Source of the DNA: Fusobacterium mortiferum ATCC 9817
GTDB taxonomy: Bacteria > Fusobacteriota > Fusobacteriia > Fusobacteriales > Fusobacteriaceae
Length of the DNA: 50,928 nucleotides
Assembly: GCF_000158195.2 (NCBI RefSeq)
Contig: NZ_GL987991.1
Coordinates: 1 to 50,928, forward strand
Reading direction: 5' to 3'
Positions 6,735 through 17,656 of the stretch are shown here, piece after piece (the first letter of the stretch is position 1; every line of letters starts with the position of its first letter). A program made the position numbers and the translations under genes. The notes under the pieces were generated by a model. That model was not told the origin of the DNA, searched no databases, and saw only the letters and a list, made by a program, of their open reading frames with translations.

Positions 6735-6852
6735 TAGAAGAAAATAAAACAAGGGAATGTATTTTTTTAGAAAATGATAATTATTAATATAATTAATATC
6801 TTTTTTCATAAAAAACAAGAAATAATATATATAATTCTCAGTATTTCTTTTC

Positions 6853-6882
6853 TTGACGGAAATGTTTGAAGTATTATATAAT
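6853..6882 (+). promoter_or_regulatory. Promoter of the cobalamin operon
   Basis: TTGACG at 6853-6858, an 18-base spacer, and TATAAT at 6877-6882. The expected start near 6889 places the B12 riboswitch at the very 5' end of the transcript. Confidence 0.7.
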
Positions 6883-6900
6883 ATTTAAAGAAAAGATAAG

Positions 6901-7068
6901 TAAAATTTTAAGTAGAGGGAAACAAGTGAAATTCTTGTACGGTCCCGCCACTGTAATGAGGACGAAAGTACATTAGCCACTGAGGAATTGGGAAGGAGTA
7001 CAAGTAGGTTGAATCAAAGTCAGGATATCTCGCTTAAAATATTTAACTATCCTGCGTGGACGGGAGGA
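6901..7068 (+). promoter_or_regulatory. Cobalamin (adenosylcobalamin) riboswitch
   Basis: The leader contains the B12-box signatures: GGTCCCGCCACTGT (6951-6964), a second GCCACTG (6976-6982), and AGTCAGGATATCTCGC (7018-7033). The closing helix P1 is formed by AAATTTTAAG and CTTAAAATATTT on either side. Downstream, CCTGCGTGGACGGGAGGAG (7051-7069) can form the L13 kissing loop with the CCCGCCAC loop. It also contains a ribosome binding site, which suggests translational control. It controls the following cob/cbi operon. Confidence 0.95.
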
Positions 7069-7101: not shown

Positions 7102-7256
7102 TAAATAAAAAGTAAGTATCTATTCAGTTGATAATTCTGAATTAAAGAAAGCTAAGATGAGTTGATTTAATTTCTTTTCATAAATTGCACAATTCTTGAG
7201 CTTTCTTTTAAGCTTAGCAAATACTTTTAATATCTATTATACTTTTTTTATTTATT
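7101..7256. repeat. Large imperfect inverted repeat between riboswitch and cobQ
   Basis: AATAAATAAAAAGTA near 7100-7115 pairs, with small bulges, with TACTTTTTTTATTTATT ending at about 7255. An inner stem pairs TTAAAGAAAGCT with AGCTTTCTTTTA. The outer right arm ends next to the cobQ binding site GAGGTG (7256-7261). It may be a MITE-like insertion or part of the expression platform. Confidence 0.5.
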
Positions 7257-7266
7257 GAGGTGAAAA

Positions 7267-8748
7267 ATGAAACATAGAAATATAATGGTAGTGGGGACTT
7301 CATCTGGAGCTGGAAAGAGTATGATAGTTACAGGGCTATGTAGAACTTTAACAAAAGATGGGTATAAAGTATCTCCATTTAAATCTCAAAATATGGCACT
7401 TAACTCTTTTGTTACAAGACAGGGGCTAGAGATGGGAAGAGCTCAAGTGGTACAAGCCTATGCCTGTGGAATAGAACCAGAAGTATATATGAACCCTATA
7501 CTTCTAAAGCCTACCACAGATAGAAAGATTCAAGTGATAGTAAATGGTAAATCTATTGGGAATATGAGTGGAATAGAGTATGGGAAATTTAAAACCTCTT
7601 TAAAGCCAGAGATAATGAAATCATATAATTATATCAGAGAAAACTATGATATATCAATAATAGAGGGAGCAGGGAGTCCTGTTGAGATAAATATTAAGGG
7701 AGAGGATATTGCCAATATGAAGATGGCAGAGATGGCTAATGCTCCTGTGATACTTGTAGCTGATATAGATAGGGGTGGAGTTTTTGCTTCTATATATGGG
7801 ACTATTATGCTTATGGTTCCAGAGGAGAGAGCAAGAGTAAAAGGAGTAATTATAAATAAGTTTAGAGGAGATGTAAATATATTAAAACCTGGACTTAAAG
7901 AGATAGAAGAATTGACAGGAGTTCCTGTAATAGGAGTAATGCCTTATAGTAATATAGATATAGAAGATGAAGACAGTGTAACAGAGAGATTTAAGAAAAT
8001 GAAAAATAGAAAGGGAATAAATATCTCTGTAATCAAATTAAAACATATATCTAACTTTACTGATATAGATGCACTAGGAATAGTAGAAGATGTAAATATA
8101 AAATATATTACTTCTGCTGATGAGTTAGGAGATGAAGATATTATAATTATCCCTGGAACTAAAAACACCATAGATGACTTAAAAGAGATAAAGGATAATG
8201 GAATAGCTACTGAAATAATAAAAGCTTCTAAGGCTGGAAAAATTATAATAGGTATTTGTGGTGGATTTCAAATGATGGGAGAGAAGATAAAAGACCCATA
8301 TGGAATAGAGAGTGAGATAAAAGAGATTCCTGGACTTTCTCTATTGGAATTGGAAACAGTGATGGAGAGAGAGAAAAATACTTTACAATATAAAGGTAGA
8401 CTTATAAATACATCTGGATTGCTTGAAGGACTAGAGGGAGAAAAGATAAAAGGATATGAAATTCATCAAGGGGTAACTTTAGGAGAGGAGAGAAAGGTTA
8501 CAGCTGATGAGAGAGTAGTAGCAGTTGTAAAGGGAGAAAATATCTTTGGAACATATCTACACGGTATATTTGACAATGAAAAAGTAACTAGACATATACT
8601 CAACAAGGTAAGAGAGAAAAAAGGTATGGAATTACAAGCTCAAGGGATATCATTTGATGAGTATAGAGAGAAAGAGCTAGACAAGCTTGAAGAAATTTTT
8701 AGAGAAAATATTGAGATGGAAAAAATTTATAAAATATTAGGTGAGTAA
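7267..8748 (+). CDS. cobQ: Cobyric acid synthase (glutamine-hydrolysing)
   Basis: Amidates side chains b, d, e and g of adenosyl-cobyrinic a,c-diamide using glutamine and ATP. It is also called CbiP in the anaerobic pathway. The N-terminal dethiobiotin-synthetase-like ATPase domain has GTSSGAGKSM at 10-19. The C-terminal class I glutamine amidotransferase-like domain has the nucleophile in GICGGFQ (C331) and the histidine of YLHG (H432). The 493-residue length is normal. It is the first gene of the operon after the riboswitch, with GAGGTG binding site at 7256-7261. cbiB starts within or right after its end. Confidence 0.95.
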   Translation: MKHRNIMVVGTSSGAGKSMIVTGLCRTLTKDGYKVSPFKSQNMALNSFVTRQGLEMGRAQVVQAYACGIEPEVYMNPILLKPTTDRKIQVIVNGKSIGNMSGIEYGKFKTSLKPEIMKSYNYIRENYDISIIEGAGSPVEINIKGEDIANMKMAEMANAPVILVADIDRGGVFASIYGTIMLMVPEERARVKGVIINKFRGDVNILKPGLKEIEELTGVPVIGVMPYSNIDIEDEDSVTERFKKMKNRKGINISVIKLKHISNFTDIDALGIVEDVNIKYITSADELGDEDIIIIPGTKNTIDDLKEIKDNGIATEIIKASKAGKIIIGICGGFQMMGEKIKDPYGIESEIKEIPGLSLLELETVMEREKNTLQYKGRLINTSGLLEGLEGEKIKGYEIHQGVTLGEERKVTADERVVAVVKGENIFGTYLHGIFDNEKVTRHILNKVREKKGMELQAQGISFDEYREKELDKLEEIFRENIEMEKIYKILGE

Positions 8749-15902: not shown

Positions 15903-16518
15903 TGTAGTTGGACTTGGACCAGGGAATATAGATTATATAACTAAGATTGGAATAGAGAGTATAAAAAAATGCGAGATAGCTATAGGAGGAGTAAGACAAT
16001 TAGAAGAGATTTCCTCTCTACTCCTACCTACTTGTGAAAAATATACTCTAGGTAAACTTTCTGATTTAATAGAGTTTATTAATAAAAATAGAGATAGAAA
16101 AATTTGTATAATTGTATCTGGAGATACAGGATTTTATAGTTTGCTTAGCTTTTTGAGAAAAAATTATTCCAGAGAGGAATTGAATGTAATACCTGGAATA
16201 TCTTCTTATCAATATCTTTTCTCTCGTATAGGAGAGGTGTGGCAAGATTATAAACTTCTTAGTGTGCACGGAAGAGAGGCTGAGTATGTAGAGATTTTTT
16301 CAAAGGAGAGGGGAATAGTACTCCTTACTGACAATATAAATACTCCATATGTAATAGCTAAGAATATCTACGAAGCTGGGTATAGAGATGTGGAGATTGT
16401 GGTAGGAGAGAGACTCTCTTATCCAGATGAAAAAATTACCTTTATAAATATAGAGGACTATGAAAAACTTAATAGAGAGTTTTTTATAAATTTAATGATA
16501 GTAAGGAAAAAATCTTGA
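15889..16518 (+). CDS. cbiE: Cobalt-precorrin-7 C5-methyltransferase, apparent CTG start
   Basis: Methylates C5 of the corrin. The reading frame begins KKINVVGLGPGNIDYITK, the SAM-binding start of the tetrapyrrole methylase family. It continues IVSGDTGFYSLL and VIPGISSYQYLFSRIG. No ATG, GTG or TTG lies at the expected place. CTG at 15889 would give MKKINVVGLGPG, and AGGTGAG (15878-15884) stands four bases before it. The same AGGTGAG-N4 layout precedes the cbiB ATG at 8750. The first canonical in-frame start is far inside the domain and would remove the SAM site. 209 residues is the normal CbiE length. The alternative is a slippage fusion with cbiD. Confidence 0.85.
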   Translation: MKKINVVGLGPGNIDYITKIGIESIKKCEIAIGGVRQLEEISSLLLPTCEKYTLGKLSDLIEFINKNRDRKICIIVSGDTGFYSLLSFLRKNYSREELNVIPGISSYQYLFSRIGEVWQDYKLLSVHGREAEYVEIFSKERGIVLLTDNINTPYVIAKNIYEAGYRDVEIVVGERLSYPDEKITFINIEDYEKLNREFFINLMIVRKKS

Positions 16519-16523
16519 TGATA

Positions 16524-16768
16524 GAAAACTCAAAGAGTTGCGGAAATTACGGAGAAAAGTTAGATTAAGTCAGCGAAATCAAATGCTAAAAAACACAACT
16601 GTTTGAGCAAAGCGAGTATTCCAATAGTAGAGGAGTTTTAACGACTACTACTATTGAGACACAGAAATTTATTTTCTGTGTCTCAAAATTCTTAGAGAGC
16701 TAAAGCTCTTAGAATTTTGGAAGCCATAGTTAATCAACTTCTTGTAGTATGGAGCAATTTTTAGTTTT
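16524..16768 (+). repeat. Structured ~245-nt repeat, copy 1 (upstream of cbiT)
   Basis: Nearly the same sequence recurs at 17383-17626. Predicted folds: a terminal helix joining 16524-16541 to 16754-16768, a second long-range helix (AAGTTAGATTAA with TTAATCAACTT), CAATAGTAG/CTACTATTG, GAGACACAG/CTGTGTCTC and ATTCTTAGAG/CTCTTAGAAT hairpins. Differences between the copies keep pairing, so it acts as a structured nucleic acid. Family not recognised. Confidence 0.85.
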
Positions 16769-16802
16769 TTAGAAAAGTAGAGAAGGAAGGAGAGAGAAAA
16801 AC

Positions 16803-17363
16803 TTGCATATATATGATAAAGAGTTTATCCAAGGAGAGTTACCTATGACAAAGCAAGAGGTAAGGGCTGTAACTGTTGCTAAGCTTCAACTAAAAACTAA
16901 CTCTATATTGATAGATGTAGGAGCAGGAACAGGGACAATAGGAATAGAATGTGCCACTTATCTTAGTGATGGAAAGGTAATAGGGATAGAGAAAGAGGAA
17001 AAAGGATTAGAAACTATAAAAGAGAATGTAAGAAAATTCAATTTAACTAACTATGAATTGATACACGGAAGGGCTCCAGAGTCTATCCCTAATGTAGAGT
17101 ATGATAGAATGTTTGTTGGTGGCTCAACAGGAAGTATGAGAAGTATATTAGAACACTTTATAAATTATTCCACAAATGATGCAAGACTTGTTATAAATAC
17201 AATTACATTGGAGAGTTTAAATGATACTATGGCTCTACTTAAAGAGTATGGATTTAAAGATATAGAAGTAGTAAATATGATGGTATCAAGAGGAAAAAAG
17301 GTAGGACCTTATACAATGATGTATGGGGAAAATCCTATTTACATAATAACAATTAATAAGTAA
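16803..17363 (+). CDS. cbiT: Cobalt-precorrin-6B C15-methyltransferase (decarboxylating)
   Basis: SAM-dependent methylation at C15 with loss of the acetate carboxyl at C12. The Rossmann methyltransferase motif I reads DVGAGTGTIGIE (38-49), followed by GIEKEEKG. MTKQEVRAVTVAKLQL upstream is typical of CbiT, as is RMFVGGSTG. The start is TTG at 16803, ten or so bases after GGAAGGAG; no ATG fits the frame. At 186 residues it is a stand-alone CbiT, not the CbiE-CbiT fusion (CobL). It is isolated from its neighbours by the two structured repeats, unlike the rest of the operon, where genes overlap. Confidence 0.93.
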   Translation: MHIYDKEFIQGELPMTKQEVRAVTVAKLQLKTNSILIDVGAGTGTIGIECATYLSDGKVIGIEKEEKGLETIKENVRKFNLTNYELIHGRAPESIPNVEYDRMFVGGSTGSMRSILEHFINYSTNDARLVINTITLESLNDTMALLKEYGFKDIEVVNMMVSRGKKVGPYTMMYGENPIYIITINK

Positions 17364-17382
17364 AGAGTTTGGTAGAGTTAAA

Positions 17383-17626
17383 GAAAACTCAAAGAATTAT
17401 GGAAATTACGAAGAGAAGTTAGATTAAGTCAGCGAAACGAAATGCTAAAAAACGCAATAAGTCGAAGACTTAACTCTTCCAATAGTAGAGGAGTTTTAAC
17501 GACTACTACTATTGAAACACAGAAAATAAATTTCTGTGTTTCAAAATTCTTAGAGAGCTAAAGCTCTTAGAATTTTGGAAGCCATAGTTAATCAACTTCT
17601 TGGAGTATGAAATAATTCTTAGTTTT
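17383..17626 (+). repeat. Structured ~244-nt repeat, copy 2 (downstream of cbiT)
   Basis: Direct repeat of the element at 16524-16768. Compensatory differences from copy 1 include T17400-A17612 for C16541-G16754, A17399-T17613 for G16540-C16755 and A17516-T17540 for G16658-C16682. The stretch from CAATAGTAG on is almost identical. The region around 17455-17480 differs and here forms AAGTC-GAA-GACTT. Confidence 0.85.
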
Positions 17627-17656
17627 CTTTATTTAAATGAAGGAGGACTTTAAAGA

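Follow-up and report, generated by a model that had tools for sequence, protein, structure and literature searches.

Two repeats that fold strongly flank cbiT in the cbi operon of Fusobacterium mortiferum ATCC 9817 and differ from one another by paired changes, which raises the question of whether the operon carries an RNA selected for its folded form or two copies of a more ordinary kind of element. We examined them in the window, by which we mean the whole stretch of 50,928 nt that was analysed, and in related genomes. With bounds taken from the family model described below, copy A lies between cbiE and cbiT and copy B between cbiT and the next gene, each in the tight space that separates a stop codon from the following ribosome-binding site (Table 1), at the two sites where the initial annotation had placed a pair of structured repeats. 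Direct repeats in the window join 16523-16598 to 17382-17457 (89%) and 16619-16768 to 17477-17626 (93%). None of 200 dinucleotide shuffles folds as well as either copy (copy A, z -6.9; copy B, z -9.4), and the three double changes that had been read from their helices (C16541-G16754 to T17400-A17612, G16540-C16755 to A17399-T17613 and G16658-C16682 to A17516-T17540) are correct to the letter. However, the reverse strand of copy B folds about equally well (z -9.0, 200 dinucleotide shuffles), and the fold is therefore a property of the DNA palindrome as much as of one RNA strand. A reading of open reading frames found no long frame within the elements.

Table 1. Positions in the window of the two copies, their parts and the gene between them.
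Feature	Position	Strand	Remarks
Copy A, long form with hairpin cassette	16522..16771	+	Starts 3 nt past the cbiE stop (TGA 16516-16518)
Copy A left arm, type I shell	16522..16569	+	Pairing partner 16729-16771
Copy A core (TCAGCG...CCATA), houses the cassette, common to type II elements	16570..16728	+	
Copy A three-hairpin cassette	16621..16719	+	Hairpins 16621-16657, 16654-16686, 16684-16719; missing from the orthologous copy in G009
Copy A right arm, type I shell	16729..16771	+	~25 nt shorter than in G009
cbiT, start TTG	16803..17363	+	Flanked by copies A and B
Copy B, long form	17381..17629	+	Starts 17 nt past the cbiT stop; the G009 site is without the element
Copy B core and cassette	17429..17586	+	Hairpins 17479-17515, 17512-17544, 17542-17577
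Copy B hairpin, loop the exact reverse complement of the copy A loop	17512..17544	+	Template-switching footprint

Copies A and B have many relatives. A covariance model built from 30 short-form copies matches both at E ~1e-17 to 1e-19 and gives 52 matches across the 2.67-Mb genome, in which BLAST returned 74 pieces, for about 50 family matches; these are dispersed and non-coding, with a usual length of 221 bp including tips and up to ~343 bp with the cassette. The same model finds 62 matches in G004, 37 in G006, 27 in G009 and 21 in G018, a member of a second genus, and the superfamily is widespread in Fusobacteriaceae. A search by covariance model and against Rfam, as the initial annotation had proposed, produced many further homologues in this family of bacteria and none in Rfam, where neither the gathering threshold nor E<=1 gave a match to the elements. 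The element was also without a BLAST match in the plasmid and phage collections, and an exact-pattern scan of GTDB genomes found it within the genus only in F. mortiferum An814, together with three single matches in unrelated genera that we take as chance.

Other members of the superfamily lie both inside and outside the window. Between 1286 and 1452 (minus strand) is a third, decayed member, of type II, situated between two minus-strand reading frames (model E 9e-7, DNA fold z -6.8), and 7117-7219 (minus strand) is a coreless type I relic with decayed tips and both arms, lying between a cobalamin riboswitch (6852-7051) and the gene that starts at 7267, inside the riboswitch leader. The matches in G004, G006 and G018, one of these genomes being from outside the window's genus, are distant relatives with other shells around a similar core. 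Around the copy at G000:C8:646244-646464, the flanks are 94-99% identical in G011 (L214, L217; C9, C18), while the cbiT protein of that genome is only 89% identical; flank identity above that of cbiT suggests either a recent exchange between species or an assembly issue.

The ends of the intact copies identify the kind of element. Copies that have kept their ends show a 13-bp terminal inverted repeat, GTAACTACTCAGC, and sit within an 8-bp target duplication. At <=1 mismatch the 13-bp tips were found 20 times in the genome (0 for a control pattern), nearly all within family elements or their single-ended remnants, and 11 copies are tipped at both ends. The 8-bp flanking direct repeats show 67% identity over 14 copies versus 42% when shuffled (0/2000 as high); no other duplication length is prominent in these 14 copies, apart from a weak signal at 7. 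For the 221-bp copy at C1:177317-177537, the sister genome G009 has an exact empty site with one 8-bp target copy (AATAATTT versus AATAGTTT-[221 bp]-AATAGTTT). In G004, the same tips (L185) lie ~200 bp from an IS66-family transposase frame (PF03050, 111.7 bits) in an element that is incomplete and at a contig end, and they also sit at contig breaks in G004, G005, G010 and G011. A search of the F. mortiferum genome for PF03050, the IS66 transposase, found none, and the IS end had no match in the plasmid collection. Captured IS66-family elements in Paracoccus have been tabulated with 8-bp duplications (PMC3281130).

Because the family has IS66 tips, an 8-bp duplication and an empty site, with no PF03050 frame in its own genome, we name its members IS66-type MITEs, and we are highly confident that they are non-autonomous elements of this type, copies A and B being worn members whose tips are lost. 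We infer that IS66 transposase mobilises them in trans. Copies A and B have neither terminal tips nor a recognisable 8-bp target duplication, and their membership therefore rests on the element body. Of the three possibilities listed by the initial annotation (structured RNA, MITE, RNA-processing element), the tips, duplication and empty site bear out the second. As to a known intron or MITE family, the elements are MITEs in kind, but we found no published name for the family: a search for Fusobacterium MITEs in the open-access literature and Rfam gave nothing relevant.

The cbiT locus of relatives places the two copies in time. G009, whose cbiT is 95% identical, has copy A as a short form in which an ordinary core replaces the three-hairpin cassette and which keeps more of the right end (Table 1), and it lacks copy B. 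The pentamer AGTTT found at both ends of the insert in the window's genome (G000) also occurs at the copy B junction of G009. Because the element-end-like sequence AGTTTTCTTT remains at that site, it may have arisen by deletion and need not show the state before insertion. Neither copy was found in the ten other genus members with cbiT that were read (G001-G008, G010, G011), and to judge from these loci neither is needed for the operon in those species. Since both are absent or different at the same place in relatives, they cannot be a conserved part of the operon.

We then considered where the copies sit among genes. The 52 scored copies (50 distinct loci) comprise 29 between convergent genes, 23 between co-directional genes and 0 between divergent genes, compared to about 10-11% convergent, 77% co-directional and 12% divergent gaps in a 451-kb background of hand-chosen stretches with heuristic gene calls. 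This skew could mean that the family has been co-opted as transcription terminators or 3'-end hairpins, a reading that we consider unlikely. Selection against insertion into promoters would be a sufficient reason for the bias, and such selection in promoters and operons gives the same pattern, as seen for the BOX, RUP, SPRITE and IS elements of pneumococcus (PMC3049150). In addition, a scan of the tested elements found no intrinsic-terminator pattern, and transcription of the operon has to continue through copies A and B, which lie within it.

The covariation test that the initial annotation had also called for was significant. Among the 30 short copies, 12 of 51 pairs had changed on both sides, whereas shuffles gave 5.9 and none of 500 reached 12; pairing held in 97.7% of cells as opposed to about 40-44% with one arm slid. 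As paired changes exceed those in shuffles and sliding an arm destroys the signal, the palindrome is truly maintained across the family, and the suggestion that the repeats were inherited from a structured family is upheld by this family-wide covariation. Covariation does not by itself prove selection on RNA. In the second cassette hairpin, the loop of copy B is the exact reverse complement of that of copy A, the other aligned long copies having the A orientation, and the third paired change (G16658-C16682/A17516-T17540) falls within this loop-inverted hairpin. Loop inversion and homogenisation of the arms are the published footprint of template switching during replication (PMC8794818; PMC8604942). 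Neutral template switching, together with inheritance from divergent family members, likely accounts for the paired changes without RNA selection. We considered a triplex motif for the mirror-like loop and rejected it, as the loop bore no resemblance to the published motif (PMC4666352).

The paired changes might instead have been selected as DNA hairpins (cruciforms) needed for transposition, neither as RNA nor by neutral template switching. Both strands fold and paired changes occur in shells and core of both element types, as this would predict, but coreless and peeled copies exist, so that the full hairpin is not needed for persistence. Moreover, such transposases usually recognise a substrate by nothing more than its tips, and we regard selected cruciforms as improbable.

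A selected RNA element that sets cbiT mRNA levels in the operon, perhaps as a hairpin for processing or stability such as an RNase III site, would explain the strong fold, the family-wide covariation and the position between stop codons and ribosome-binding sites, and it has a precedent in the Correia repeats of Neisseria, reported to be bound by RNase III with cleavage or protection (PMC2649163). Selection on one RNA strand would also be consistent with the slight excess of G·U over A·C columns, but with pairs picked without strand preference this excess was not significant (22:11 in type I, p 0.08; 10:4 in type II, p 0.18) and is suggestive at most of some selection at the RNA level. Against such an element also stand the about equally good fold of the reverse strand, the dozens of copies that adjoin unrelated genes, mostly convergent, and the relatives, in which copy B and the centre of copy A are missing or different (G009) or both copies are lacking (the ten other cbiT species); an RNA element is quite unlikely. 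The initial annotation's suggestion that the folded form is selected is not established by these data, given that G·U does not clearly exceed A·C, that loop inversion points to a DNA-level process and that the element is absent or different in sister species. The palindromic, intergenic and high-copy character of the elements would also suit an intron or a palindrome of the REP/BIME type with its RAYT transposase. Either is scarcely credible here, as neither REP/RAYT nor intron mobility agrees with the IS66 tips and the 8-bp target duplication, and the elements have no Rfam match or long internal reading frame.

With the copies read as IS66-type MITEs, the least ordinary aspect of the family is its concentric mosaic. 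The shells of type I elements (AAGAAAACTC...) and of type II elements (TTCAAGAAT...) are unrelated (58-60% versus 53-54% shuffled) but surround one common core (89% versus 58% shuffled), and core variants and the hairpin cassette are found in both. Nesting occurs in either order: at C2:865436-865727 type I shells surround a type II element, and at C1:136017 and C8:235898 type II tips enclose type I. There are also coreless or peeled copies with symmetric internal loss. Type II is often enclosed by a further shell, GGCTGTTGCAAATT...AATTGCAACAGCC, with a separate hairpin module, AAAGGAAAAAAGTTTACTTCC... (G000:C5:154398-154888, C5:106276, C8:300125, C1:135808). We looked for a target duplication around the outer S0 shell, which has GGCTGTTGCAA tips, and found none supported; these tips may point to IS6-like ends. 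One tentative possibility is that the family evolves from its centre, the palindromes swapping, gaining or losing whole concentric layers at the hairpin tip. Such exchange might, with equal reserve, proceed by cleavage and rejoining of the tip or by template switching, and would yield a shared core, nesting in either order and peeled copies. If true, centre-out exchange of layers would be a mode of MITE diversification unlike tandem-module or point-mutation models.

A history for the two copies can be proposed from these comparisons. The mobile full-length form is a near-palindrome of 221 bp that bears IS66-type tips, codes for nothing and inserts with an 8-bp duplication. It was presumably moved by transposase from an IS66-family element whose tips are identical; a sister species has such an element, and the search of this genome found none. 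Copies A and B have both lost their tips. Copy A probably predates the split from G009, its cassette having been gained here or lost in G009, probably by conversion from another long copy, while copy B would be a later insertion or would have been deleted in G009 between the 5-bp AGTTT repeats, perhaps with help from the hairpin. The paired changes in the arms would reflect inheritance from a palindromic family and correction of one arm by the other through replication template switching. The copies may persist because each occupies a gap that separates a stop codon from the ribosome-binding site after it, and the cbi mRNA probably includes them as strong hairpins with mild effects at most.

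The copies around cbiT thus belong to an ordinary class of element, unusual in being layered like an onion, and are not a special RNA of the B12 operon. The cbi operon thereby loses a riboregulator that was tempting to propose but is not needed, and Fusobacterium annotation gains a mobile family. It also exposes a pitfall, in that compensatory changes between two repeats can arise by template switching in a DNA palindrome and are no proof, taken alone, of selection on an RNA fold; the copy B hairpin at 17512-17544 is a clear example from nature of an inverted loop. The concentric layers of the family also provide natural material for testing how the centre of a long palindrome is gained, lost or exchanged.

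Several known systems resemble the family in part. With IS66-family insertion sequences (PF03050), it shares tips identical to those of the G004 IS66 element and the 8-bp target duplication, but it has no transposase, is 221 bp long (longer with the cassette) and has an unrelated palindrome as its interior. Like the bacterial MITEs Correia/NEMIS of Neisseria, QMITE2 of Coxiella, Nezha and Chunjie, its members are short, AT-rich, non-coding long hairpins with terminal inverted repeats, target duplication, intergenic placement, high copy number and truncated copies. They differ in having concentric layers that can be exchanged from one kind of shell to the other, and they match none of the curated RNA or repeat families searched. 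The BOX elements of Streptococcus pneumoniae are also composites of exchangeable modules that fold as RNA and are enriched between convergent genes (PMC3049150), but BOX modules stand in tandem (boxA-boxB-boxC), whereas those described here are nested symmetrically around a single palindrome centre.
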